This document shows, piece by piece, positions 135-25,621 of a stretch of 64,000 bases of DNA. The translations under genes were made by a program, and so were the position numbers. Every line of letters starts with the position of its first letter. Position 1 is the first letter of the stretch. The DNA is from Actinoplanes lutulentus (GTDB taxonomy: Bacteria > Actinomycetota > Actinomycetes > Mycobacteriales > Micromonosporaceae): NCBI RefSeq assembly GCF_003259845.1, contig NZ_QLMJ01000005.1, positions 124,001 to 188,000 of the forward strand, in the 5' to 3' direction. Below the pieces are notes generated by a model that made no database searches, was not told the DNA's origin, and saw nothing but the letters and a program-made list of their open reading frames with translations.

Positions 135-2810
135 TCAGACGGGGGCGCCCTCCAGGAACAGGCGGCCCGCCTCCGACGCCGGCACCGGGCGGGAGAAGTA
201 GTAGCCCTGTGCGAACCCGCAGCCCATCTCGCGCAGCGCCGCCAGCTGGCCGAACTCCTCGATGCCCTCGGCCACCGTCGCCATGCCCAGGCTCTTGCCG
301 AGCCGGACGATCGTGTCGGTCAGCGCCGTGTCGTCGGCGAGGATGCCGAGGCGTTCGACGAACGAGCGGTCGATCTTCAGGGTGTCGACCGGGAAGCGGC
401 GCAGGTACGCGAGGGACGAATATCCCGTACCGAAGTCGTCGATCGCGAGAGTGAGTCCCAGGGCCTTGAGACGGACCAGCTGCTCCAGGTTGGCCTCGGT
501 GTCGGTCATCAGGACGCTCTCGGTCATCTCCAGGCAGAGGCAGTCGGCGGGCATGCCGGTCTCGGCGAGCACGGCGGCAACGGTCTCGGCGAGGTCGGCC
601 TGGTCGAACTGGCGTACCGAGACGTTGACGCTCATCTTCAGCGGGCGGCCGCCGGCGGCGTTGCTCCACTCCATGGCCTGACGGCAGGCCTCGTGCAGGA
701 CCCAGCGGCCGAGCGGCACGATCAGGCCGGTGGCCTCGGCGATCGGGATGAAGTCCAGCGGGTTGATCATGCCGCGGGTCGGGTGCGGCCAGCGTGCGAG
801 CGCTTCGAAGCCGACCACCTCGTGGGTGACCAGGTCGACGGTGGGCTGGTAGTGCAGTTGCAGCTCGCCGCGTTCCAGGGCGCCGCGCAGGTCGGACTCG
901 AGCTCGAGGCGTTCCATCAGGCCCTCGCGCATCCGGGGGTGGTACCCGGCGAAGATGTTGCCGCCGACCGACTTGGCGTGGTGCATGGCGAGGTCGGCGT
1001 TGCGCATCAGCTGGTCGGCGCGCTCGGTGGCGGACCCGGCGTCGAGGTCGGCGACACCGGCCAGGCCGATGCTGCCCCGGACGTGGATCTGCCGTTCGCC
1101 GACCAGGACAGCCGCGTCGAGGTCGTCGAGGATGCGCCGGGCGACGCCTTCGGTCGAGGCCGAGTCCCCGGCGAGCAGCACGCCGAACTCGTCGGCGCCG
1201 AAGCGGGCGACCAGGTCGGTGTCGCGTACGCATGCCTTGATCCGATCGGCGACCTGGACCAGGAGCTGGTCGCCGGCGAGGTGACCGAGGCTGTCGTTGA
1301 CCCGCTTGAACCCGTCCAGATCGAAGTGCAGCACGGTGACGTCCTCCGGGCCGGCCAGAGCCGCCGCGGTCCGGTCGCGGAACAGGGCGCGGTTCGCCAG
1401 TTGGGTGAGCGAGTCGTGGTACGCCTCGTGCACCAGCTGCTCCTGCAGCTCCATCCGCTCGCTGATGTCGCGGGTGTTCAGCACGAGACCACGCACGTGC
1501 GGGTCGTCGAGCAGGTTCGTGATGGTCATCTCGGCCTGACGGGGGCGGCCGTCGCGGTGCGGCACTGTCAGTTCGAGGACGGTCGTGGCATGCGGGCGGC
1601 CGGCGACCTGCCGCAGCGCCTGGGCCAGCCGCATCGCCGACTCGGGGTCGAGCAGCTGGGTGAGGCGGCGGCCGGTGAGCAGCCGCGGCGTGTGCCCGAA
1701 GATCCGCTGCACCGACTCGCTCTGGTAGATCACGTCGGCGTCCGTGCTGACCACGGTCACCACGTCGGAGCTCTGCTGGACGAGCGCGTGGAACTGCTGC
1801 TCGCGGGCGTACAGCTCGGCGGTCCGGTCGGCGACCCGCTTCTCCAGGTCGCGGGTCAGGCTGCGGTTCTCCAGCTGGGTGAGCAGCTGCCGGCCCACGA
1901 TCAACAAGATCAGGAACGAGCGTGTGTACGCGACGAAGGGGTGACTGTGCCCGGTCGAGACATGGAACAGCACGCTGGAGGCGAGCGCGGCCAGCACCGC
2001 CAGGTACGGCATCAGCACAGCACCGGTGCGGACGCCGCGCGGCAGGTCGATCGGGGCGACGGCGCCGACCCGGGGACGTAGCGCACCCGCCACGATCAGC
2101 CCGTAACCGGCCAGCCAGCCGAGGTCGAGCAGCCGTCCGATGCCGTCGTCGTGTACGAGGCCGAGGTACGCGTACCCGATGTCGGAGATCGCGAAAGCGA
2201 GCATGCCAGCGCCGAAGAAGGCGAGGTCAGCGCCGCAGCCGTGCCGCCGGCGCTGCTGCGGAAGCATGTACGCCGCCATCGTGGCGATCACGATGTCGCC
2301 GACCGGGAAGGCCAGCGTCAGGTAGAAGGGCAGCCCGACACCGGCGTCGGCGATCAGCCCGGCGGCGAAGACCCACGCGACCAGGACGAGCGAGGTCGCG
2401 ATCATGAGGCCGTCGAGAACGCTGCGGATCCGGTTCGCCAGCGGCTGCGCGCTGCTCGGCATGATCAGCAGCCCGGCCGGGACCAGCACGATCATGCCGA
2501 TCAGGGTGAGGCTCGGGGTGACCACACCGGTCTCGACGGTCCCACCGGTGTTGATCAGGAACTGGAGTTGCCCGGCGCCCCAGAGGAAGATCCCGGCCGC
2601 CAGCGTCGTCCAGCCCACCCGGGTACGCCCGGTGAACTGCCGTGATCGCCACAGGCAGGCGGCGGCAGCGGCGGCCGCCGCGACCGGCAGCGCGACGAAC
2701 GAGACGGCCGCGCCGCCGAAACCGAGCATCACCGGGGAAACGGCGAGAAGGGCGACGATCAGCGCGCAGGCGAGCGCCCACCGGCGCCCTGGGTTCATGC
2801 TGCGTGTCAT
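135..2810 (-). CDS. Membrane-bound PAS-GGDEF-EAL c-di-GMP turnover protein
   Basis: An 891-residue protein. Residues 1-320 hold about eight or nine hydrophobic segments. A PAS domain follows at about 335-450, then a GGDEF domain at about 480-620 and an EAL domain at about 630-880. The diguanylate cyclase signature is degenerate, RFGADEF (residues 538-542 GADEF), with Ala in the second position. The RDTD inhibitory-site motif sits at the canonical spacing just before it. The EAL domain looks intact: EAL at 669-671 in GFEALARW, then DDFGTGYSSL and KIDRSF. By family knowledge GGDEF makes c-di-GMP and EAL degrades it; which activity dominates here is open. The ATG is preceded by GGAGGC. The gene is monocistronic and ends before another minus-strand partial gene. 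Confidence 0.93.
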   Translation of the reverse strand: MTRSMNPGRRWALACALIVALLAVSPVMLGFGGAAVSFVALPVAAAAAAAACLWRSRQFTGRTRVGWTTLAAGIFLWGAGQLQFLINTGGTVETGVVTPSLTLIGMIVLVPAGLLIMPSSAQPLANRIRSVLDGLMIATSLVLVAWVFAAGLIADAGVGLPFYLTLAFPVGDIVIATMAAYMLPQQRRRHGCGADLAFFGAGMLAFAISDIGYAYLGLVHDDGIGRLLDLGWLAGYGLIVAGALRPRVGAVAPIDLPRGVRTGAVLMPYLAVLAALASSVLFHVSTGHSHPFVAYTRSFLILLIVGRQLLTQLENRSLTRDLEKRVADRTAELYAREQQFHALVQQSSDVVTVVSTDADVIYQSESVQRIFGHTPRLLTGRRLTQLLDPESAMRLAQALRQVAGRPHATTVLELTVPHRDGRPRQAEMTITNLLDDPHVRGLVLNTRDISERMELQEQLVHEAYHDSLTQLANRALFRDRTAAALAGPEDVTVLHFDLDGFKRVNDSLGHLAGDQLLVQVADRIKACVRDTDLVARFGADEFGVLLAGDSASTEGVARRILDDLDAAVLVGERQIHVRGSIGLAGVADLDAGSATERADQLMRNADLAMHHAKSVGGNIFAGYHPRMREGLMERLELESDLRGALERGELQLHYQPTVDLVTHEVVGFEALARWPHPTRGMINPLDFIPIAEATGLIVPLGRWVLHEACRQAMEWSNAAGGRPLKMSVNVSVRQFDQADLAETVAAVLAETGMPADCLCLEMTESVLMTDTEANLEQLVRLKALGLTLAIDDFGTGYSSLAYLRRFPVDTLKIDRSFVERLGILADDTALTDTIVRLGKSLGMATVAEGIEEFGQLAALREMGCGFAQGYYFSRPVPASEAGRLFLEGAPV

Positions 2811-13968: not shown

Positions 13969-14582
13969 TCCGGATCCTGCTCGTCGACGACCACCCGGTG
14001 GTCCGGATGGGTCTGCGCGGCATGCTCGACGCCGAGGCCGACCTCACGGTGATCGGCGAGGCATCCTCCGGCTCGGCCGGGGTGACTCAGGCGCTCGCTC
14101 TCCAACCCGACATCGTGCTGATGGACCTGCGGATGCCGGACGGCGACGGGGTGGAGGCGACCGGCCGCATCCTCGCGGCCACGCCAGGGGTGAAGGTCAT
14201 GGTCCTCACCACCTATGAATCGGACCGGGACATCCTGCGCGCAATCGAGGCCGGGGCCTCAGGCTATTTGTTGAAGGACGCGACGCCGGCCGAGCTGGCG
14301 GACGCGGTCCGGGCGGCGGCGCGCGGCGAGACGGTCCTCGCGCCCAGCGTGGCGTCGACGCTGGTGCGGCAGGTGCGCGCTCCGGCGCCGCCGGCACTCT
14401 CGGCGCGCGAGACCGAGGTGCTGCGGCAGGTGGCGGCCGGCCTGACCAACGCCGAGATCGGAAAGCGCCTGTTCATCTCCGAGGCGACAGTGAAGACGCA
14501 CTTGCTGAGAGCCTTCAACAAGCTGGACGTGGCGGACCGGACAGCGGCCGTTACCACCGCCATGCGACACGGACTGCTTTAA
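13965..14582 (+). CDS. NarL/LuxR-type response regulator of the exporter operon
   Basis: A 205-residue regulator with receiver domain (DDHPVV, Asp54 in LMDLRMP, Lys in YLLKDA) and a C-terminal LuxR helix-turn-helix (LSARETEVLRQVAAGLTNAEIG). It begins with GTG inside the kinase stop region. It probably controls the two exporters upstream. No operator can be identified from the sequence. Confidence 0.92.
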   Translation: MIRILLVDDHPVVRMGLRGMLDAEADLTVIGEASSGSAGVTQALALQPDIVLMDLRMPDGDGVEATGRILAATPGVKVMVLTTYESDRDILRAIEAGASGYLLKDATPAELADAVRAAARGETVLAPSVASTLVRQVRAPAPPALSARETEVLRQVAAGLTNAEIGKRLFISEATVKTHLLRAFNKLDVADRTAAVTTAMRHGLL

Positions 14583-14625
14583 ACCGCTAAACCTGAAACT
14601 TCGTCATGAGCGGCTTTTGTGGCGA

Positions 14626-14637
14626 TTAGATTACCGA
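14626..14637 (+). promoter_or_regulatory. Motif shared by the two Calx-beta gene leaders
   Basis: TTAGATTACCGA lies 97 bp before the first Calx-beta start and recurs with one change as TTAGATTACGGA at 22200-22211 before the second. It may be a promoter element, but no paired -35 box is convincing. A small hairpin (CGCCCG/CGGGCG) lies downstream at 14692-14708. The rest of this 151-bp leader shows no riboswitch that I recognise. Confidence 0.3.
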
Positions 14638-14733
14638 CTGCGTCCCCTGTTTCCGCAGATCACTGAGGTTCCCAGGCTTCGCGCTGCTCCACGCCCGAAA
14701 TCCGGGCGGTTCCATGGAGAGACGGGGACGATC

Positions 14734-17700
14734 ATGCGCGTACGTCCGAGTGTGCCTTTTCGCCTGTGGGCACCGGCCCGGTTCCGGACCCTGGTGTCGA
14801 TCGTCGCGGCGTCCGCGGCCGGCCTGGTCCCGGCGGTAATGCTTCCGGCCCGTCCGGCGTACGCGGCCGCCGGCGAGATCATTATCGAGGCGGACATCGA
14901 GGACGCCGAGGCCGGCACGTTCGTCTTCGAGGTACGCAGGCTCGGCCCGACTACCGGCCTCGGGTCGGTCACGCTGACCTACGACACGGTGACCTCGCCG
15001 TCCAGCGACCTCGTCGGTGCGACACCGAACGTCGACTTCCACACGATCAGCGGCTCGACCACGTTCTCGGAGAGCGGCCGAGACTCGATCAAACGGCTCA
15101 CCGTTACCGGCATCACCGACCCGAACGACGAGTACGACGAGCGGTTCGCTCTGCGCCTGTTCAACCCCAACGGCAGCCTGCTGACCGAGGCGTACGGAAC
15201 GATGCTCGACGACGACGTGCCTCCGACGTACACCCTGGGTACACCGGTGACCGTGGGAGAGTCGGACGGCACCGCCTCGCTGACGGCGACACTGTCGGAC
15301 TTCTCGGCAAAGGAAGTGCGGATCCCGTACGCCACTGCGGACGGCTCGGCCACCCCGGCCGACTACACGCCGGTCACGGACGTACTGGTGATCCCGCCGG
15401 AGAGCCCGACCGGCACGTTCACCGTGCCGATCCTGCCGGACGCCCGGGACGAGCTGAGCCCGGAGACCTTAACGGTCACCACCGGCACGCCGGTGAACGC
15501 GACCACCACCGCCAATACGGCGCAGGTGCGGATCACCGACGACGACGATCCGCCGGTGGTCGGAATAGGCGCGCCCCCGGACGCGGCCGAGGGCGATCCG
15601 CTCAAGTTCCCGGTGAGCCTGAGCGCGGCGTCGAACCTGCCGGTCACGGTCTCGGCCGCGACGAATGGGAACGGGGACGCGACAGCCGACGACGACTACA
15701 CGCCTGTGGCTCCGACAACGATCACGTTCAGCCCGGGGGACGTCGCGAAGACCTTCGAGGTGCCGACCACCGGCGATCTAGATCCGGAGTCGCCCGAGAC
15801 GGTGGGTGTGACGTTGTCCGGACCGTCCCAGGCCACCCTGGATCCGGCCGCGACGTCGGTGCTCGGCAACATCGTCGACAACGCCGTGACGGTGACTGCG
15901 GTCGGTACCCTCGACGAGAGCTCCCACACGCAGGCCTTCGACGTCACGCTGACGGCGGCCCCGGCCACCGCCATCGACATTGGCTGGGCGGCCTCGGCTG
16001 GCGCCGGAAGCGCGACCGACGGGAAGGACTTCGACGCCGACAGCGGAACGCTGACCTTCGAGCCGGGCGAGTCGACCAAACGGATCGGCGTGGACATCCG
16101 CGCCGACGAGGTCTACGAATTCGGCGGGGAGACCTTCGAGATCGCGCTGACGAACACCGACAACGCCCGGATCTCCGGTTTCACTTCGCCGACGACGTTC
16201 ACCCTCCCGGACGACGACCCGGAACCCACTTTGGACGCCTTCACGAGCACCGGCCCTCAGGCCGAAGGCGACTCGGCCGGCGCGGTCACGTTCACCGCGA
16301 CGCTGAGCAACCCGACCAACGTGCCGGTCACCCTGAACCTGGGGTCTACCGACGGCACCGCTACCTCGGTCAGCACCGGCGACCCGGGCGACGATGACTT
16401 CGCCGTACCGGCCACCCTCGTGATCGCGGCCGATGCCCTCAGCGGGACCCAGAACGTGACGGTCAACGGCGACGAGGTCTTCGAGAGTGACGAGAGCGCG
16501 GTCATCTCGGCGACCGTCGACTCCGACGCCACCCAGGTCGCGCAGGGATCCCGATCCGGGGCGCTGACGCTGATCAACGACGACGACATGCCGTCGGTTG
16601 CGCTCGCTCCGGTCGCCGGTGTCGAGGACATCCCATCGGCGCTGACCGCGACCGTCACCGGCGACGCGCAGGCCCCGCTGAACTACACCGCGGTCCTCGC
16701 CGGCGCCCCCGACGGCACCAGTGACCCCGCCGAGCCCACCGACTTCGCCACCGGCGGCATGTCGCTGATCGGTCCGCTGAATCCCGGCGATCACCTGATC
16801 GACCTCGGCTCGGTCGGCCTGACGACCGACACCATCGACGAGTACGCCGAGACGATCAGAGTCAGCCTCTCCCTTGGTGGTCAGACCCCGGCTGTCAACT
16901 ACGTCACGATCGCTGACGACACCGACGACAAGGAACCGATCGTCTCGATCGGATCGCCGATCTCGGTGATCGAGGACGACGGCCCGGCCGAAGTACCGGT
17001 GACGCTGGACTTCGACCACGACAGCAACGACGCGGACAGGACCGAGAAGACGATCGAGGTCGCGTACGAGACCGGAACCGGTGCCGGGATGACGCCCGCG
17101 ACGGCGGACGGCGACTACACCGCGGTCACCGACGGCACGCTGATCTTCGATCCGGCGACCGACTTGCTGGTCAAGAACATCGAGGTGGGTATCGCCGACG
17201 ACGAGGACTACGAACTCGGCGAGACATTCGATGTAGACCTCACGGCAGCGCCCCTGGCGTACGCCTTCGCGCCCTCCTCCAGCATCGTGACTATCACGAA
17301 TGACGATGATCCGCCGGGGTTCGAGGTCACGCCCTCGTCCGCGCAGCCGGTAGCCGAGGGCGGTACCGCCTCGTTCACCGTGACCCTCGACGCGCCGGCT
17401 GTGGCACCGGTCAACTTCACCCTGGTGACGACGCCGGTGGCGCCGATGACTGGCGCTGACTACACGACCCCGGCCGGCACGTTCCAGATCGGCGCGAACC
17501 AGCAGTCCGCGACGGTTACGGTGCAGACCGCGGTCGACACGGTCGACGAGCCGGACGAGGCTCTGACCGTCAGGTTCGCCCTCGACGGCGCGGAGACTGA
17601 CGCCACCGGTGGCCCGATTGACCGTACGGTCACCATTACCGACGACGATCCGGTGCCCACGCTCGCGTTTGCTAACCCGTTCACCGGCACCGAGGGCGAC

Positions 17701-20700
17701 ACCGAGGAACTGGTCGCGACGGTGACCGGGTCGGCGCAGGCGCCGATCGGATACATCGCGACGGTCACCGGAGTCGGCGGGACAGCGGCCGCCGCCGGGA
17801 TGACCAACCCGGTCCAGGCTGCCGACCTCGACGGATCCGGGCTGACGCTGACCGGCAACCTCACCTCTGGCGCTACCACGCTGGACCTCGGCGACCTCCT
17901 GCTGAAGAACGACACGATCGACGAGTACGACCAGACCGTGAAGATCACCGTCACCCTCGCCGGGCAGACTCCGGTGGAGACCACCGTGACGATCGCCGAC
18001 GACGATGACGACCTGCCGCCAGAAGTGTCCGCCGACGCGTCGGTCGCGGTCGCGGAGAATCTCGGCCCGGCGGCGGTGCCAGTGACGCTGGACTTCGCCC
18101 AGGACGGCAACGACGCGGATTCGACCGAGAAGACGATCGTGGTCGGGTACGCCACGGCTGTGGGCACGGCGACGGCGGGCGCGGATTACACCGCGACGGC
18201 GAACGGCACGCTGAGCTTCGATCCGGCGACCGACTCGCTCACCAAGGACATCGAGATCGCGGTCACGAACGACGCGGACTACGAACTGGCCGAGACGTTC
18301 GGGGTGACGCTGACGTCGGCGCCGCTGGCAGACACCATCAGTCAGGCCGACAGCACTGTGACGATCACCAATGACGACACCGCACCGGGCTTCACGATCA
18401 CACCGGCGTCGCCGGTCCCGGTGGCCGAGGGCGCCGCGGCCACACTCACCGTCACCCTGGCCGCCGACGCGGTGGCGCCGGTCGACTTCACGGTGGTTAC
18501 GACCGACGGCACGACGATCGGCGCCGACTACACGACCCCGGCCGGCACCTTCCGGATCCCTGTGAACCAGCGGACCGCGACAGTGTCGCTGCAAACCTTC
18601 GCCGACCTGGTCGACGAGCCGGACGAGGACCTGACCGTCACGATCGCCCTGGACGGCGCGGAGACCGACGCCATCGGTGGCCCGGTGAACCGCACGATCA
18701 GCATCACCGACGACGACCCGGCGCCTACGCTCTCGTTCGCGGGCCCGATCACCGGCACCGAGGGAGACACGAAAGCGCTGGTCGCGACGGTCACCGGAAC
18801 AGCGCAGTCGCCGATCGCCTTCACCGCGACGGTCACCGGGGTGGGCGGGACCGCGGCCGCCGCCGGGATGACCAACCCGGTCCAGGCCGGCGACATCGAG
18901 GGATCCGGGCTGACGCTGACTGGCAACCTTGCACCCGGCGCGTCCATGATCAACCTTGGTGGCCTGGTGCTCCGCGACGACCTGATCGACGAGGACGCCC
19001 AGACCGCCGAGGTCTCGATCACCCTGGCCGGTCAGAGCCCGGTCACGACCACCGTCACGATCACCGACAACGTGGACGACGCCGAACCGGCCGTGGTCGG
19101 CCCCGGCTCGCTCGCGGTCGCCGAAACCAATCCCGCGACGCTGCCGGTCACCCTTGCCTTCGCCGGCGCGACCACCTCCACCGAGAAGGAGGTGACGGTC
19201 CGGTACGCGACCACGGCCGGCACGGCCACCGCCGCCGACTTCACCGGCGCGACCGACCAGCTGCTGACCTTCACGCCCGGAAACGGCACCGCGAACATCA
19301 GCATCCCGGTCGTCGCGGACACCCTGCACGAGAACAACGAGCAGTTCGCCCTGACCCTCTCCGGCCAGAACGCCGCCGCCTCTGCGATCACCACGCCGCA
19401 GTCGACGATCACCATCACCGACGACGACAGCACCGTCCCGGAGTTCACGCTCTCGGCGGAGAGCCCGGTCGTCGAGGGCGGCACCGCCACCTACACAGTC
19501 GAGCTCGGCTCGGCGGCCGCCGAGGACATCGACTTCGACGTCACCCTGACCGGTAGCGGCGCGGCCGCCACCACCGACGGCGGCTCGGACCCCGGCAAGG
19601 ACGACTTCGGTACGGTCGCCGCGACCGCAACCGTGCTGAAGGACGCGACCACTGCGACGATCAGCATCCCGGCCACGGGCGACAACGTTTACGAGGGCGC
19701 CGAGACCGCCACGCTGTCGGTCGAGCCGGCGTCGACCGAGGACGACGTGGCGGACCTGACGCGTACGCGGGCCGTCACGATCAACGACGCCGACCCGGTG
19801 CCGACCGTGGCCCTCAACGTGGCGAACGGCGACTTCTACGCGGTTGCCGAGGCCGGGCACTTCTACGTGACCGCGACGACGACCGGTGTCGCCGAGCGGA
19901 ACATGGACTACTCGATCTCGGTCGACGGGTACGGCCTGAACGGGGAGAACCCGGCCGAGCCCGCCGACTACCAGGTCGAGGACGCGACCGACACGATTCC
20001 CGGCGGCAGCGCCTCCGGCACCTCGTGGACCGTCGGGCACGTCCGGTTCCTCGCCGACACCGTCGACGAGGCGACCGAGACGATCACGGTGACCGCGCAC
20101 AACGACACCTCGGCCACGGCGGACGTCAGCACCCACTACAAGATCACCGACGACGTCAACGACCGGCCGCCGACACCCTCGCTAGGCCCGGTGACGATCG
20201 CCGAGGGCGCCGGACCGGCGTCCGTCCCGGTGACCCTCAGCTACGCCGACAACCAGGCCCTCTCGACCGAGCAGGACCTCACCCTCAGCTACGAGGTGCT
20301 GGCCGGAAGCGCCGCCGCCAACGACTTCGGCACCCCTACCAGCACCAACCCGCTGATCATCACGGCCGGCTCGCCGTCCGGCGCGATCGTCGTACCGATC
20401 ACCGACGACCTGCGGTACGAGCAGAACGAGACGTTCCAGGTCCACGCCACCGAGGTCGGTCCCCTGGGAGCGGCGCTCGGCACCGACACCGCCACGGTCA
20501 CCATCACCGACAACGACCAGAACTACCCCCGGCCGTCGTTCACGGTCGGTTCGGCGTTCGCCTCGGAGAGCTCGACCGGCGCCACCTTCACGGTGACCCT
20601 GTCCGGGGTGGCCCAGGACGACGTCGACTTCACCGTGTCGATGGCGGACGGCTCGGCCACCGGCAGTGGCACCGGCCCGGGCGGTGACGACTTCGACGAC

Positions 20701-22104
20701 CCGTCCGGGACGCTGCGGATCGCTCAGGGAAGCCTGACCGGCTCGATCTCCGTACCCTTGCGCTCGGACACCGTCCATGAGGGTGACGAGACCGCTCAGC
20801 TGACTGTCGCGCTCGCCGCAGGCGAGCAGGACGCGACCGGCAGCGCCCAGCAGGGCACGCTCGGGATCGCCGACGACGACGCGCGGCCCACCATCGCGCT
20901 GAAACCGGGCAGCGGCGCCGAGGGGGAGCGGGTGTCGATCACCGGCGTGGTCACCGGAACGGGGCAGAGGAGCCTTGGCTTCGGCACGCTGTCCGGCACC
21001 GGCGCGGGGGACGCCGCCGCCGGAGCGGCCGACTACCAGCTCCCCACGTCCTCGGTCTACGTCTCCGGTGGCACGTCCAGCGGCAGCACCGTCGACCTCG
21101 GGTCGATCGCTCTCGCCTCGGACACCGTCGACGAGAACACCGAGAGCGTCGTCGTCAGCCTCGGCGGTCAGACCGCGACCTATCGGATCACCGACGACCC
21201 CGACGACACGCCGCCGACCATCACGATCTCCGACGAGGACACCCGGGAGAGCTCCGCCTCGGTCGACCTCACGGTCTCCCTCGGCTTCGCCGGCAGCACC
21301 ACGGCCACCGAGCGCCGCATCACGGTCCCATGGCGTACGGTCGCCGGCACCGCTGAAGCCGGCTCGGACTTCACCACCTCATCGGGCACGGTGTCGTTCG
21401 CGCCGCCGGACACCCGGTCGATCGTGTCGATCCCGCTGCTGCACGACAACCTCAAGGAATCGGACCAGACCTTCACCGTACGGTTCGGGACGCCCTCACC
21501 CAGTGACGTGAAGACGGCCAAGGCCGAGGGAACCGTCACGATCGCCGACGACGACAAGGCGAAGACGCCGACGCTGACCGTCCCGTTCACTGTCGTCAAC
21601 GGCTCGGTCCGGATGACGCTCAGCGGCACGGCCGGCGCCGGGTCGGCGGTCGAGCTGCTCGGCGCGCCCGGCCTCACCGGCAACACGTGGCGGGTGATCA
21701 GCACGACCGAGGCGGACACGGACGGCGCCTACAGCTTCCGGCCCAACTTCACCCAGGGCTACCGCCTCGCGGTACGCGCGGACGACCTGGTCTCGGCGAC
21801 CCGGATCGTCCAGATCGCCCAGCAGCCGGTCCTGGCGGCCACCTCCACGGCGAAGGGCGTCGTGAGCCTGACCGTGACCGGTGACCCGGACAAGGCCGGC
21901 CAGGCGGTGACCGTGCAACGCCTGAACAGCGGCGACTGGGATCCGGTCGCCACCGGCAAGCTGAACGCCGACGGCACCTTCACGGCCACCCAGCGCTCGC
22001 TGCGGTCCGGTACCTCGTACAGCTACCGCGCGGTGATCGCCGCGACCGCGAGCCTAGGCATCCTGGCCGGCACCTCACCGGCCCGATCGGTCCGCGTTCG
22101 CTGA
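14734..22104 (+). CDS. Giant secreted Calx-beta repeat protein
   Basis: A 2456-residue secreted protein. The signal peptide ends at PAYA/AAG. It is followed by about 19 tandem Calx-beta-like modules of roughly 90-130 residues, each closing on a VTITDDD-type acidic motif that in this family binds calcium. A final domain of about 150 residues (about 2310-2456) lacks these motifs and resembles the end of the next gene. No LPxTG motif, transmembrane anchor or enzymatic domain is visible. The likely role is a calcium-stiffened matrix or adhesion filament. A 1068-bp block is duplicated in tandem inside it. I chose the ATG at 14734 (MRVRPSVPF) for its position before the signal peptide and a GGGGACG upstream. 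Confidence 0.9.
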   Translation: MRVRPSVPFRLWAPARFRTLVSIVAASAAGLVPAVMLPARPAYAAAGEIIIEADIEDAEAGTFVFEVRRLGPTTGLGSVTLTYDTVTSPSSDLVGATPNVDFHTISGSTTFSESGRDSIKRLTVTGITDPNDEYDERFALRLFNPNGSLLTEAYGTMLDDDVPPTYTLGTPVTVGESDGTASLTATLSDFSAKEVRIPYATADGSATPADYTPVTDVLVIPPESPTGTFTVPILPDARDELSPETLTVTTGTPVNATTTANTAQVRITDDDDPPVVGIGAPPDAAEGDPLKFPVSLSAASNLPVTVSAATNGNGDATADDDYTPVAPTTITFSPGDVAKTFEVPTTGDLDPESPETVGVTLSGPSQATLDPAATSVLGNIVDNAVTVTAVGTLDESSHTQAFDVTLTAAPATAIDIGWAASAGAGSATDGKDFDADSGTLTFEPGESTKRIGVDIRADEVYEFGGETFEIALTNTDNARISGFTSPTTFTLPDDDPEPTLDAFTSTGPQAEGDSAGAVTFTATLSNPTNVPVTLNLGSTDGTATSVSTGDPGDDDFAVPATLVIAADALSGTQNVTVNGDEVFESDESAVISATVDSDATQVAQGSRSGALTLINDDDMPSVALAPVAGVEDIPSALTATVTGDAQAPLNYTAVLAGAPDGTSDPAEPTDFATGGMSLIGPLNPGDHLIDLGSVGLTTDTIDEYAETIRVSLSLGGQTPAVNYVTIADDTDDKEPIVSIGSPISVIEDDGPAEVPVTLDFDHDSNDADRTEKTIEVAYETGTGAGMTPATADGDYTAVTDGTLIFDPATDLLVKNIEVGIADDEDYELGETFDVDLTAAPLAYAFAPSSSIVTITNDDDPPGFEVTPSSAQPVAEGGTASFTVTLDAPAVAPVNFTLVTTPVAPMTGADYTTPAGTFQIGANQQSATVTVQTAVDTVDEPDEALTVRFALDGAETDATGGPIDRTVTITDDDPVPTLAFANPFTGTEGDTEELVATVTGSAQAPIGYIATVTGVGGTAAAAGMTNPVQAADLDGSGLTLTGNLTSGATTLDLGDLLLKNDTIDEYDQTVKITVTLAGQTPVETTVTIADDDDDLPPEVSADASVAVAENLGPAAVPVTLDFAQDGNDADSTEKTIVVGYATAVGTATAGADYTATANGTLSFDPATDSLTKDIEIAVTNDADYELAETFGVTLTSAPLADTISQADSTVTITNDDTAPGFTITPASPVPVAEGAAATLTVTLAADAVAPVDFTVVTTDGTTIGADYTTPAGTFRIPVNQRTATVSLQTFADLVDEPDEDLTVTIALDGAETDAIGGPVNRTISITDDDPAPTLSFAGPITGTEGDTKALVATVTGTAQSPIAFTATVTGVGGTAAAAGMTNPVQAGDIEGSGLTLTGNLAPGASMINLGGLVLRDDLIDEDAQTAEVSITLAGQSPVTTTVTITDNVDDAEPAVVGPGSLAVAETNPATLPVTLAFAGATTSTEKEVTVRYATTAGTATAADFTGATDQLLTFTPGNGTANISIPVVADTLHENNEQFALTLSGQNAAASAITTPQSTITITDDDSTVPEFTLSAESPVVEGGTATYTVELGSAAAEDIDFDVTLTGSGAAATTDGGSDPGKDDFGTVAATATVLKDATTATISIPATGDNVYEGAETATLSVEPASTEDDVADLTRTRAVTINDADPVPTVALNVANGDFYAVAEAGHFYVTATTTGVAERNMDYSISVDGYGLNGENPAEPADYQVEDATDTIPGGSASGTSWTVGHVRFLADTVDEATETITVTAHNDTSATADVSTHYKITDDVNDRPPTPSLGPVTIAEGAGPASVPVTLSYADNQALSTEQDLTLSYEVLAGSAAANDFGTPTSTNPLIITAGSPSGAIVVPITDDLRYEQNETFQVHATEVGPLGAALGTDTATVTITDNDQNYPRPSFTVGSAFASESSTGATFTVTLSGVAQDDVDFTVSMADGSATGSGTGPGGDDFDDPSGTLRIAQGSLTGSISVPLRSDTVHEGDETAQLTVALAAGEQDATGSAQQGTLGIADDDARPTIALKPGSGAEGERVSITGVVTGTGQRSLGFGTLSGTGAGDAAAGAADYQLPTSSVYVSGGTSSGSTVDLGSIALASDTVDENTESVVVSLGGQTATYRITDDPDDTPPTITISDEDTRESSASVDLTVSLGFAGSTTATERRITVPWRTVAGTAEAGSDFTTSSGTVSFAPPDTRSIVSIPLLHDNLKESDQTFTVRFGTPSPSDVKTAKAEGTVTIADDDKAKTPTLTVPFTVVNGSVRMTLSGTAGAGSAVELLGAPGLTGNTWRVISTTEADTDGAYSFRPNFTQGYRLAVRADDLVSATRIVQIAQQPVLAATSTAKGVVSLTVTGDPDKAGQAVTVQRLNSGDWDPVATGKLNADGTFTATQRSLRSGTSYSYRAVIAATASLGILAGTSPARSVRVR
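17317..19450 (+). repeat. Tandem duplication of a three-module block inside the Calx-beta gene
   Basis: Two adjacent copies with a period of 1068 bp (356 codons). The anchor GTAAAAGMTNPVQA is encoded near 17773 and again near 18841, and LDGAETDA plus YTTPAGTF recur at the same offset. The limits given are approximate. Divergence between copies is substantial, so the event is not very recent. Confidence 0.7.
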
Positions 22105-22199
22105 TCGGCCGGCCTCCATCCCGAACGATGGTTTCTCGGTAGATAGATCCGTATTTAGACCGAAAAAAGCATTCCGCCGGTAACGGACGGATACGCGAG

Positions 22200-22211
22200 T
22201 TAGATTACGGA
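22200..22211 (+). promoter_or_regulatory. Second copy of the shared leader motif
   Basis: TTAGATTACGGA, 11 of 12 bases identical to the copy before the first Calx-beta gene. It lies about 75 bp upstream of the riboswitch, as expected for a promoter region, but its function is inference. Confidence 0.3.
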
Positions 22212-22283
22212 TGGCGCGGCGTCATGCCGGACCAATAGTTCCGGTGTTTCCGCTGCTCAACCCGTATAAGACGGGTGCACGAC

Positions 22284-22386
22284 GAAGCGCCCCCTCAGGC
22301 GCGGTACCCGAACAGGCAAACCCGTTGTAAGGCGGGGACGCAAAGCCAGGGGCCTCCCCGGACGGAGGTAGCCCAGCCGCCGAAGG
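22284..22386 (+). promoter_or_regulatory. GEMM-I (c-di-GMP-I) riboswitch
   Basis: The leader carries the hallmarks of a GEMM-I RNA: GGCAAACC, a hairpin CCCGTT-GTAA-GGCGGG closed by a GNRA tetraloop, the highly conserved GGGGACGCAAAGCC, and a second hairpin GGCCTCC...GGAGGTAGCC whose helix is the tetraloop-receptor arm. The final strand AGCCGCC, which should close the basal helix with the GGCGCGG near 22298, ends against the ribosome-binding site GAAGGAG (22382-22388). Ligand binding should therefore affect translation initiation. The direction (on or off) is not decidable by eye. It controls the Calx-beta gene starting at 22399. Confidence 0.88.
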
Positions 22387-22398
22387 AGAAAGAAACAC

Positions 22399-25308
22399 AT
22401 GCGCTATCAAGAAGCCCATGCGGCCAGGAGCGGCTCGGTTCCGTTCACGCTGTATGGCAAGAAGACCCTGCAACGGGTCCTGTCCACGGCTGTGGCCGGT
22501 GTTATCGGCCTGGCACCCGCAGTTCTCATCTCGTCGCCCGCTCTGGCGGCGAATGCGGTTGCCGACGACGTTACTTTCACCACCACACCCGTGGTTGTCA
22601 CCGAAGGCGGTGTCGCAGCCCTCGAGCTGACGTGGGTCGGGACAACGACCGGTGCCACGCCGGAAGCGGACCTGACCTGGAAGACCGAAACCTCGGGCAC
22701 TGCCACAGCGGGATCGGATTACACAGCCGTCAGCAGCACGCTCATCACCTTCGATGGCAATAAGAAGGCCACTCTGAGCGTCACCACACTGCTGGACAGT
22801 CTCGATGAGGCCTCACCCGAGACCATCAACGTGAGTGTGTATGACCCATCGGGATCGACTTCTGTTCCGATCAAGACGGCCGTCATCAACATCACTGATG
22901 ACGACCCCGAGCCGAGCTACACGTTCACCGCGAACCGCACCAGCGTTCCTGAGGACGGCGGCACGGTGCGGGTCACTGCTCGGTTGTTGACCGCGTCGGG
23001 TCGCACGATCAACATTCCGTACTCGACGGAGGATGGCACCGCCAAGGCGGGGCAGGACTACGTAGCCACTTCCGGAACGTTGACCTTCGCCCCGACCGAA
23101 ACCGAGAAGTACTTCGACGTCACGATCACGGATGACGCCCTTTATGAGGGCACTACCCCGCAAACGTTCGTTGTCAAGGCCGGCTCGGCTGATGGTGTGG
23201 CCGCCACCGCGACCCCGATCACGATCAGCATCGTCGACAACGAAACCACTCCGAAGGTGGGCGTCGTCGCTGCCTCGCCCACGGCGGTTGCCGAGGGCCA
23301 GTCGCTGAGCTACCCGCTCACGCTGATCCCTGGATCGGAGACGGCGGTCACGGTCAAATACGGCACCACTGACACGCCGACGCCGCTGCCGAGTCACGGT
23401 CCGGCCACTTCAGGCTTGGACTACACCGCGGTCACTCCGCCGCAGACGGTTACCTTCTCGCCGGGTGTCACGGCAGGCCCGACTGCGCAGGTGATCACGA
23501 AGAACGACATCCTCGACGAGCTTCCCGAGGACGTCACGGTCGCGCTGAGCGAGCCGTCGGGCGCGGTCATCGACCCGACGAAGGCGAGCGCGATCGGCAC
23601 CATCACCGACCAGGTCGTGTCCCTGCCGGTCGTCAGCCTCACTGATGCCTCCAAGACCATCGCGGTCGAGGGGAACAGCGGCACCAAGAAGCACACGGTT
23701 ACCGTTCAGCTCAGCCAGGCATCGGGGCAGGAGCAGAAGTTCACCTGGGCGGCGGCCAACTCGGGAAGCGTGTCTGCCGAGTCCGGCAAGGACTTCGTGG
23801 CTGGCAGCGGGGCCCTGACCTTCGCTCCGGGTGACACCACGAAGACCTTCGACGTCGAGATCATCGGCGATCTGATCGACGAGGGTGACAGCGAAAGCTT
23901 CACGATCACCTTGGCGAGGACCGCTGGCACTGCGACCGGAGCCGGGGCAAACACCATCGTCATCACGGATGATGACGCGAAGCCGACGATCAGCCTGGAG
24001 CAGACCGACCTGAAGATGCCTGAAGGCAACGGCTACTCTGCCGCGCTTCTTCAGGTCAATCTTTCGAACCCGAGTGCGCAGGGCGTCAGCTGGACGACCG
24101 CCCTTGCCACCGACCCGGGTACTGCCACGGACGGTGCCACCCTGACGGGCGGGCAGACCGTCGGCGCCGATGATTACGACATCATCTCGGTGGTCTCGCC
24201 TACGGCCCAAACCATCGCGGCCGGCCAGACTTCCGGTTATGTCCTGGTACTGGTCAAGGGCGACACTGTCTTCGAAGGCGATGAGACCATTCGACTGACT
24301 GCTGCCCTCAATACGGGGGAGACCGACGCCACGGGCGGTCCGCTCTCCGGCACGATCACCCTGACCAACGACGATCTCGCCCCGGCGCTCGTCGTCGACT
24401 CGGCGAACGCGGTCGAGGGTGACGCTCTCGCTCTCACCGGCACGACGCTGGGATGGTCGCAGAGTGCCACCCTGCTCAACGTGACCCTGGCCGGGGAGAA
24501 GCACGGCACCACCGCCGCTGCTTCGAACAACGACTTCTCGCCGAACGTGTTCTCGGTCAACATCCCGGCCGGCACGGACACCGACAAGAAGGTGCCGATC
24601 GGTACGGTCAACATCGTCAACGACCCGACCGAGGAGCCCGCTGAGGCGATCAAGGTCTCGGGTTCTGGCTTCGGTGGGACCGGCACGGTCAAGGACGGCT
24701 GGATTGTCATCGCTGCCAGCGACGGCGCTTCCGAGCCGACCGACCCGGAGGAGCCGGGTGAAGAGGAGCCGGGCAAGCCGACCATCGCGACCGGGAGCAC
24801 CACGCTCACCGGCACCGGGACCGTCACGGTCACCGGCAAGGTCGCCAAGGGTGCGGACGTCGAGTTCTACGGCCGTCCGTTCGGCACCGAGGAATGGCTG
24901 AAGATCAAGACGGCCAAGGCTGACGCCGAGGGTCACTACTCGTTCGCTCGCTGGATCGGGACCGGTTACCAGTTCCGCACCATGAGCAGCGAACTCTGGT
25001 CGGACATCCTCACCGTCCGGGTCAAGCAGAACCCGGTGCTCACGGTGACCTCGCCGAGCAAGGGCAAGCTGTGGGTCGGCGTCGCCGCCAACCCGAAGGA
25101 CGCCGGTCAGGCCGTTCTGGTCCAGAGCTGGGTCAGTGGCGCCTGGAAGACCGTCTACAAGGGCACGACCAACGCCAGCGGGGCGTACTCGATCACGTCC
25201 TCGATCGCTTCGGGCAAGAGCCTGACGCTGCGGGCGTTCGTCGAGGGTGACACGTCCGAGGGCCTGCTGGGCAACTGGACCACCTCGAAGAAGATCACCA
25301 TCAAGTAA
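22399..25308 (+). CDS. Secreted Calx-beta protein under c-di-GMP riboswitch control
   Basis: A 969-residue secreted protein with a signal peptide ending PALA/ANA. About six Calx-beta modules follow, marked by NITDDDPEP, VITDDDAKP and TLTNDDLAP. A Glu/Pro-rich linker (EPTDPEEPGEEEPGKP, about 785-800) precedes a C-terminal domain of about 160 residues that aligns with the end of the larger neighbour. No sortase or membrane anchor is seen. GAAGGAG eight bases before the ATG is adjacent to the GEMM-I RNA. The product is probably part of the extracellular matrix or sheath, made or silenced according to c-di-GMP level. Confidence 0.92.
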   Translation: MRYQEAHAARSGSVPFTLYGKKTLQRVLSTAVAGVIGLAPAVLISSPALAANAVADDVTFTTTPVVVTEGGVAALELTWVGTTTGATPEADLTWKTETSGTATAGSDYTAVSSTLITFDGNKKATLSVTTLLDSLDEASPETINVSVYDPSGSTSVPIKTAVINITDDDPEPSYTFTANRTSVPEDGGTVRVTARLLTASGRTINIPYSTEDGTAKAGQDYVATSGTLTFAPTETEKYFDVTITDDALYEGTTPQTFVVKAGSADGVAATATPITISIVDNETTPKVGVVAASPTAVAEGQSLSYPLTLIPGSETAVTVKYGTTDTPTPLPSHGPATSGLDYTAVTPPQTVTFSPGVTAGPTAQVITKNDILDELPEDVTVALSEPSGAVIDPTKASAIGTITDQVVSLPVVSLTDASKTIAVEGNSGTKKHTVTVQLSQASGQEQKFTWAAANSGSVSAESGKDFVAGSGALTFAPGDTTKTFDVEIIGDLIDEGDSESFTITLARTAGTATGAGANTIVITDDDAKPTISLEQTDLKMPEGNGYSAALLQVNLSNPSAQGVSWTTALATDPGTATDGATLTGGQTVGADDYDIISVVSPTAQTIAAGQTSGYVLVLVKGDTVFEGDETIRLTAALNTGETDATGGPLSGTITLTNDDLAPALVVDSANAVEGDALALTGTTLGWSQSATLLNVTLAGEKHGTTAAASNNDFSPNVFSVNIPAGTDTDKKVPIGTVNIVNDPTEEPAEAIKVSGSGFGGTGTVKDGWIVIAASDGASEPTDPEEPGEEEPGKPTIATGSTTLTGTGTVTVTGKVAKGADVEFYGRPFGTEEWLKIKTAKADAEGHYSFARWIGTGYQFRTMSSELWSDILTVRVKQNPVLTVTSPSKGKLWVGVAANPKDAGQAVLVQSWVSGAWKTVYKGTTNASGAYSITSSIASGKSLTLRAFVEGDTSEGLLGNWTTSKKITIK

Positions 25309-25323
25309 TCGCACTGAGCATCA

Positions 25324-25355
25324 AAGCGGGGGCGGCCATTCGGCCGCCCCCGCTT
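25324..25355 (+). terminator. Terminator of the Calx-beta gene
   Basis: A perfect 14-bp stem, AAGCGGGGGCGGCC and GGCCGCCCCCGCTT, with loop ATTC, 16 bp after the stop codon. No long T tract follows, as is usual in actinobacteria. Confidence 0.75.
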
Positions 25356-25457
25356 CGCGTATCCACAGCAGCCCCGTGAGGGAACCGCACCCCAAGACCG
25401 CGGGGGCCGGGCGGAGACCGGACCCGACCACTGGCAAGCCGTGCCGGCGGGCAAGCC

Positions 25458-25512
25458 GAGCCGTAGCTCAGATACGTCATCCGGGTTCCAGAACAGTCCT
25501 GGACTACGGCTC
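25458..25512. repeat. Family C palindrome, copy 1
   Basis: A 55-bp inverted repeat beginning GAGCCGTAGCTCAG and ending CTGGACTACGGCTC. The outer arms pair well; the centre has drifted. Confidence 0.7.
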
Positions 25513-25520
25513 AGGCAGGC

Positions 25521-25575
25521 GAGCCGTAGTCCAGACATGTCATTCGAGTCCGATGACCTATCTGAGCTACGGCTC
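25521..25575. repeat. Family C palindrome, copy 2
   Basis: A 55-bp inverted repeat beginning GAGCCGTAGTCCAG and ending CTGAGCTACGGCTC, with GTCATTCG opposite CGATGAC nearer the centre. It lies eight bases after copy 1 in the same orientation. Confidence 0.75.
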
Positions 25576-25621
25576 GCCTGCGGCAAGCTCGCCACCGAGC
25601 AGCGATGCCGGCGAATCCGGA

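Follow-up and report, generated by a model that had tools for sequence, protein, structure and literature searches.

A candidate class-I c-di-GMP riboswitch overlapping the Shine-Dalgarno sequence of a Calx-beta protein gene in Actinoplanes lutulentus

A c-di-GMP-I aptamer in the leader of a Calx-beta gene

A stretch of 64,000 nucleotides from Actinoplanes lutulentus, a soil actinomycete of Actinoplanes sensu lato (contig NZ_QLMJ01000005.1, positions 124,001 to 188,000; hereafter the window) contains a c-di-GMP-I (GEMM-I) aptamer at 22306-22385 on the + strand, the 3' end of which overlaps the Shine-Dalgarno (SD) sequence of a gene for a predicted secreted Calx-beta protein. We read this leader as a class-I c-di-GMP-responsive translational switch on the Calx-beta gene, whatever its sign, and from the sequence comparisons described below we put the probability of this reading at about 0.75. 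The c-di-GMP riboswitch itself is a known kind of switch, of which this copy is a further member.

The whole window gave one Rfam match above the gathering cut-off, to RF03167 (c-di-GMP-I-GGC; 22306-22385, + strand, 60.7 bits, E 7.3e-12; cut-off 59 bits). RF01051 (c-di-GMP-I; cut-off 35 bits) scores 62.9 bits at the same site (E 2.2e-11), placed one base upstream of the RF03167 match, and the 9.89 Mb genome has no other RF01051 match at E<=1. The two families belong to one Rfam clan, and the aptamer exceeds both cut-offs. An earlier note, made from the letters of the DNA, had called a GEMM-I aptamer here and proposed a covariance-model search, which has now returned a significant c-di-GMP-I match. 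The four motifs that it named are all present (GGCAAACC at 22315, GACGCAAAGCC at 22337, GTAGCC at 22368 and GAAGGAG at 22382). Chance similarity is ruled out by the E-value and by the recurrence of the aptamer throughout the genus.

In Vc2 numbering, which we take to map onto the window in this way, the pocket residues G20, A47 and C92 are G22315, A22342 and C22380, the last of these placed by the model alignment. Because these three residues form the G20/A47/C92 pocket of RF01051, the aptamer was filed under c-di-GMP-I and not under the GGC variant, and on sequence grounds c-di-GMP-I is the more fitting name. The RF03167 consensus has G at position 47, which, from the name and consensus of that family, we take to be its class mark; the aptamer scores above the RF03167 cut-off but has A22342 at this position. 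According to an excerpt of PMC4744006, G20, A47 and C92 of Vc2 contact c-di-GMP. By analogy, c-di-GMP would be bound by the same three residues here, with stabilisation of P1.

Anatomy of the leader

The covariance models and the comparison with relatives indicate that the leader RNA would fold into the GEMM-I three-way junction. The 5' strand of P1 (CCCG, 22307-22310) pairs through its CG with 22381-22382 and through its CC with GG 22385-22386 of the SD sequence GAAGGAG (22382-22388), which lies 10 nt from the start codon; the leader does end against its ribosome-binding site, as had been proposed. P2 (22316-22341) is made of GC/GC outer pairs and a 6-bp stem (22321-22326/22331-22336) closed by a GUAA loop (22327-22330). 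This is the GNRA-capped hairpin of the earlier note, and some relatives are without a GNRA loop (e.g. L079, L087). In RF01051 aptamers the P2 loop of this kind docks in a receptor within P3. The P3 arm (22344-22378) includes two non-standard pairs, A22344.C22378 and C22347.A22375. Two details of the earlier description had to be adjusted: the aptamer begins about 20 nt downstream of position 22284, which had been taken as the start of the interval, and the riboswitch is "fused" to the Calx-beta protein only in the sense that it lies in the leader of the gene, not as a literal fusion.

The structure was compared across 44 of the 59 leaders of the window's type (type A, see below), 15 near-duplicates being left out by choice. 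The 22 pairs written on the window, which omit two P3 positions of the family consensus that do not pair here, are paired in 97.3% of cells, compared with 32-57% when the partners were slid. The P1-P2-P3 junction of RF01051 is thus present in these relatives, and covariation is thin: two P2 pairs are changed on both sides among the 44 rows, and a control slid by -3 columns also has two such changes, with a score of 0.048 versus 0.074 for the true structure. Each of the two P1-SD pairs (22307-22308 with GG 22385-22386) is standard in 43 of the 44 rows, and each of the two P1 CG pairs in 34; of the 10 remaining rows, at least 7 have the P1 CG one column upstream (read by eye), which would cost one SD pair. 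AAGGAG is invariant in the aligned relatives, which were themselves picked by a GCCGCC...GGAG end. RNAalifold favours a competing pairing of GGC 22315-22317 with GCC 22376-22378.

Further upstream, a promoter-like stretch, GTAACG ... TTAGATTACGGA (22180-22212, + strand), would place the start of transcription near 22213; a scan with the sigma-70 consensus called no promoter at this stretch. It includes TTAGATTAC at 22200, and the same 9-mer occurs in 36 of the 59 type-A loci, some 100 nt ahead of the aptamer, as well as at 14626, ahead of a Calx-beta paralog in the window. Since TTAGATTAC is found ahead of both Calx-beta genes and of many type-A aptamers, it is probably a promoter element.

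The Calx-beta gene and its neighbourhood

The open reading frame at 22399-25308 (+ strand) agrees in its limits and in its content with the secreted Calx-beta target that had been proposed. It encodes 969 amino acids, has a signal-peptide-like N-terminus (by eye) and matches Calx-beta (PF03160) in three stretches with 154.6 bits (cut-off 27 bits). The protein contains no LPxT motif. Calcium binding by this Calx-beta-type protein is putative, and it may be a component of the extracellular matrix or serve in adhesion. The upstream gene (14617-22104) is a Calx-beta paralog with nine Calx-beta stretches, 33% identical to the 969-aa protein over residues 13-780. Its true start is probably ATG 14734 (2,456 aa) and not the listed TTG 14617. 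A second riboswitch before the paralog was considered and rejected, as 14000-15000 gave no Rfam match at E<=1.

Just 3' of the stop codon of the 969-aa frame lies a 14-bp perfect G+C-rich hairpin (25324-25355, + strand), possibly the end of the transcript. The region at 25454-25581, also 3' of the Calx-beta gene, consists of nested inverted repeats built on GAGCCGTAG, with 59-nt arms (78%) and 29-nt arms (86%).

Distribution of the unit in Actinoplanes

A set of 120 genomes was searched with RF01051 at E<=0.001. Matches were obtained in 60 of 67 same-genus genomes, in none of the 5 others of the same family and in 7 of the remaining 48, those listed among the latter being of the same order; searches over more than 40 genomes use stricter filters, by which weak matches are lost. 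The 82 same-genus loci fall into two types, A (59 loci in 59 genomes) and B (23 loci in 23 genomes). Type A was picked by the GCCGCC...GGAG end, and C92 is part of the picking string. The unit of aptamer, SD and gene is accordingly present in 59 of the 67 genomes of the genus. Type A is also carried by 22 of the 23 type-B genomes, such as G058 (L007, L034); genome G005 has type B only.

All 59 type-A aptamers precede a reading frame that aligns with that of the window (27-46% identity). In the first 480 residues of these proteins Pfam detects Calx-beta in 48 and LapA in 10 (E<=1e-3). The pocket is G20/A47 in 57 loci and G20/G47 in two.

The exact type-A pattern was found in none of the seven genus genomes that lack a called aptamer. 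In four of them (G009, G020, G037, G046) a homologous gene is kept after a leader that has diverged or decayed; G018 and G024 show no more than partial C-terminal matches to the gene, and a search of G008 returned no homologous gene. As four relatives keep the gene behind such a leader, the switch may be dispensable. In one of these decayed or divergent type-A leaders, L161, a large part of the P2 region has disappeared; L166 and L171 carry GACGCGAAGCC (G47) and an extended P2, and in L159 the P2/P3 junction is altered.

A pattern search with the type-A aptamer and SD gave 33 named stretches, 31 of which are from Actinoplanes or the close genera Paractinoplanes, Winogradskya, Amorphoplanes, Symbioplanes, Couchioplanes, Pseudosporangium and Nucisporomicrobium; all 31 continue into the same protein N-terminus. 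The other two are from Candidatus Solirubrobacter pratensis and an Actinomycetota MAG. These two loci (L118 and L123) carry the same unit of aptamer plus CAGCCGCCGAAGGAG outside the genus, and the gene behind the Solirubrobacter copy is glycosidase-like (by eye).

A second type of locus with a varied position 20

Type B precedes a secreted protein of 130-150 amino acids without a clear Pfam or NCBIfam family. Position 20, which is G in all 59 type-A loci, is G in 12, A in 6 (L011, L013, L034, L058, L059, L080) and C in 5 (L066, L070, L075, L076, L077) of the 23 type-B loci. Mapped onto the tree of the neighbouring type-A proteins (22 genomes), these states require at least 8 changes, and shuffled labels gave as low a number in 258 of 2000 trials. 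On the weakly supported tree of the type-B leaders themselves at least 5 changes are needed, and shuffling never gave as few (0 of 2000). The position-20 state thus follows the lineage of the leader and not the neighbouring gene family. Species seem to have exchanged whole leaders with different pocket types, alongside some changes, a history that we favour over repeated mutation in place.

A20 is the change by which class-I switches can accept 3',3'-cGAMP, and we know of no characterised natural class-I switch with C20. According to the excerpts available, position 20 contributes to selectivity between c-di-GMP and cyclic AMP-GMP (PMC9262584, PMC10333796), a crystal structure of a G20A class-I RNA with 3',3'-cGAMP is reported (PMC6274999), and binding by Vc2 falls 30,000-fold when G20 is mutated (PMC4744006). 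One could picture a two-switch surface-protein regulon, with the Calx-beta switch on c-di-GMP and with type-B lineages (G20, A20 or C20) that differ in ligand preference before the same gene family; we regard this picture as speculative and rather doubtful, and A20 or C20 may simply weaken binding. Still, the varied position 20 of type B is a more surprising lead than the Calx-beta switch.

Mode and sign of regulation

Control would most likely be exerted at translation initiation, because the SD overlaps P1 and leaves no room for a terminator. The aptamer model ends 13-16 nt before the ATG in all 59 type-A loci, and a scan for terminator-like sites on the + strand of 22090-22450 found none; on these two grounds transcription attenuation was rejected.

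The 3' strand of P1 enters GAAGGAG, so that the P1 state would compete with the ribosome for the SD. If c-di-GMP bound at G20, A47 and C92 stabilises P1, as the family suggests, the P1-SD pairing makes us lean to OFF at high c-di-GMP as the likeliest sign, at odds close to even. Synthesis of the Calx-beta protein would then follow a fall in c-di-GMP, plausibly during sporangium or spore development. Thermodynamic folding of 58 leaders, with and without the aptamer imposed, showed no switch and did not reveal the sign of regulation: the mean unpaired probability of the SD (free/forced) was 0.49/0.53, 0.46/0.46 and 0.36/0.36 for three leader lengths, and the forced aptamer carried an average penalty of 8-9 kcal/mol.

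The same aptamer and ligand could also act in the opposite sense, with binding of c-di-GMP freeing the SD from an alternative helix that involves either an upstream GUGCGG, which would pair with CCGC at the P3/P1 junction, or an upstream CCU. In that case high c-di-GMP, as in sessile growth, would turn on synthesis of the protein. We take this ON switch seriously but would not bet on it. GUGCGG is well kept upstream (its C is invariant, and G25, G27, G29 and G30 of the first row are conserved to at least 90%), and the shortest free fold of the window pairs CCU with the AGG of the SD and GGCG with CGCC. With the aptamer forced, the SD became more open in 21 and less open in 12 of the 58 leaders in their shortest version, the corresponding numbers for the two longer versions being 18 and 14, and 20 and 18. 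However, no covariation backs the helix, because some rows disrupt it (GCTG in L028, L041 and L085; also L029) while its partner never changes, and P1 itself pairs with the SD.

It is also conceivable, but improbable in our view, that the aptamer is a relic, which stayed on as leader RNA or to stabilise the mRNA after its ligand response had been lost through the mismatches in P3. A22344.C22378 is mismatched in all 44 aligned leaders and C22347.A22375 in 41, the remaining three having U-A, and these mismatches may lower affinity; the four relatives with a decayed or divergent leader point the same way. A relic would not be expected from the pocket letters, which are kept in 57 of the 59 type-A loci, and a similar GCCAGGG/CCCAGC form of P3 is found in copies from other families (e.g. 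L083, L086, L094). Least probable, and by a wide measure unlikely, is a c-di-GMP-I-GGC variant that senses another ligand: RF03167 is the best cmscan match by E-value, but RF01051 gives more bits (62.9 vs 60.7), position 47 is A where RF03167 has G, and RF03167 is also the best match of the A20 relatives L034, L013 and L011, so that this model does not sort by pocket.

GEMM-I leaders in the wider actinomycetes

Of 394 genomes drawn from across the class, 43 have an RF01051 match; the window's genome is one of these. The earlier note had seen in the locus an RNA-level c-di-GMP output in an actinomycete, which is a fair description, but class-I riboswitches are not rare in this class. The survey gave 58 places outside the window's genome, of which the 29 with a fetched locus were read; among these, the core pattern failed on L131 and L158, a false core was picked in L147, L148, L151 and L154, and no reading frame was found for L130 and L136. 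The set of 36 scanned proteins consists of 21 from this survey, those of L118 and L123, and 13 from other-family loci of the 120-genome set.

Of these 36 proteins behind RF01051 copies outside the genus, 19 match the N-terminal motif of type IV pilins, none matches Calx-beta, and a few belong to the glycoside hydrolases or response regulators. Five resemble the type-B protein by eye (L004, L005, L038, L133, L137). In actinomycetes, then, GEMM-I leaders commonly stand in front of genes for surface appendages, and among the loci surveyed a Calx-beta target was seen only in Actinoplanes. The pilin-like genes lie behind the GEMM-I copies L139-L143, L145, L146, L149, L150, L152, L153 and L155-L157, and further behind L063, L083, L086, L092 and L094.

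c-di-GMP supply and comparison with known systems

The genome has 84 GGDEF matches, some of which are halves of one domain, and 42 EAL matches, and c-di-GMP supply is, judging by this gene content, ample. Near the edge of the window, about 21 kb from the riboswitch, 186-1424 (- strand) holds GGDEF and EAL in one 927-aa frame. Excerpts of the literature count 67 GGDEF or EAL proteins in Actinoplanes sp. SE50/110 (PMC6828939) and name Actinoplanes among the densest in turnover proteins (PMC10333796). Our search of the open-access literature turned up neither a natural riboswitch reported from Actinoplanes nor a paper on Actinoplanes and Calx-beta; in the portions available of PMC6828939, PMC11767292, PMC11626248, PMC10333796 and PMC11205660, riboswitch mentions are reference entries or general text. 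If our main reading is right, a spore-forming actinomycete rich in c-di-GMP enzymes has an RNA through which c-di-GMP acts directly on a surface protein of a named class. Genetic work has already been done in one strain of the genus, A. missouriensis 431T.

Compared with RF03167, the window scores just above the gathering cut-off but has A47, and G47 is confined to 2 of the 59 type-A relatives. With Vc2 and Vc1 of Vibrio cholerae (RF01051) it shares the fold, the conserved motifs and the G20/A47/C92 pocket; unlike them, it has non-standard P3 pairs and a high-G+C actinomycete host. GbpA is a secreted adhesin. Vc1 sits in the gbpA leader, and RF01051 aptamers have an inter-helical Watson-Crick pair between P2 and P3 (both from an excerpt of PMC4744006). 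The excerpted account places the start site of Vc1 244 bp from the transcript start, whereas in the window P1 runs up to the SD and the start codon follows after 13-16 nt. Bc2 of Bacillus thuringiensis is likewise a c-di-GMP riboswitch before a surface adhesin, a collagen adhesion protein, and the excerpt of PMC4933901 describes its gene as strongly repressed in the parent strain; both adhesin and bacterium, as described there, are unrelated to those of the window. FrhA of Vibrio cholerae, an adhesin with Calx-beta and cadherin repeats, is also a Calx-beta surface protein tied to c-di-GMP, but according to the excerpt of PMC6890996 it is governed by LapG cleavage and transcriptional control, with Vc2 acting only via the repressor TfoY, whereas in Actinoplanes the aptamer lies in the leader of the Calx-beta gene itself.
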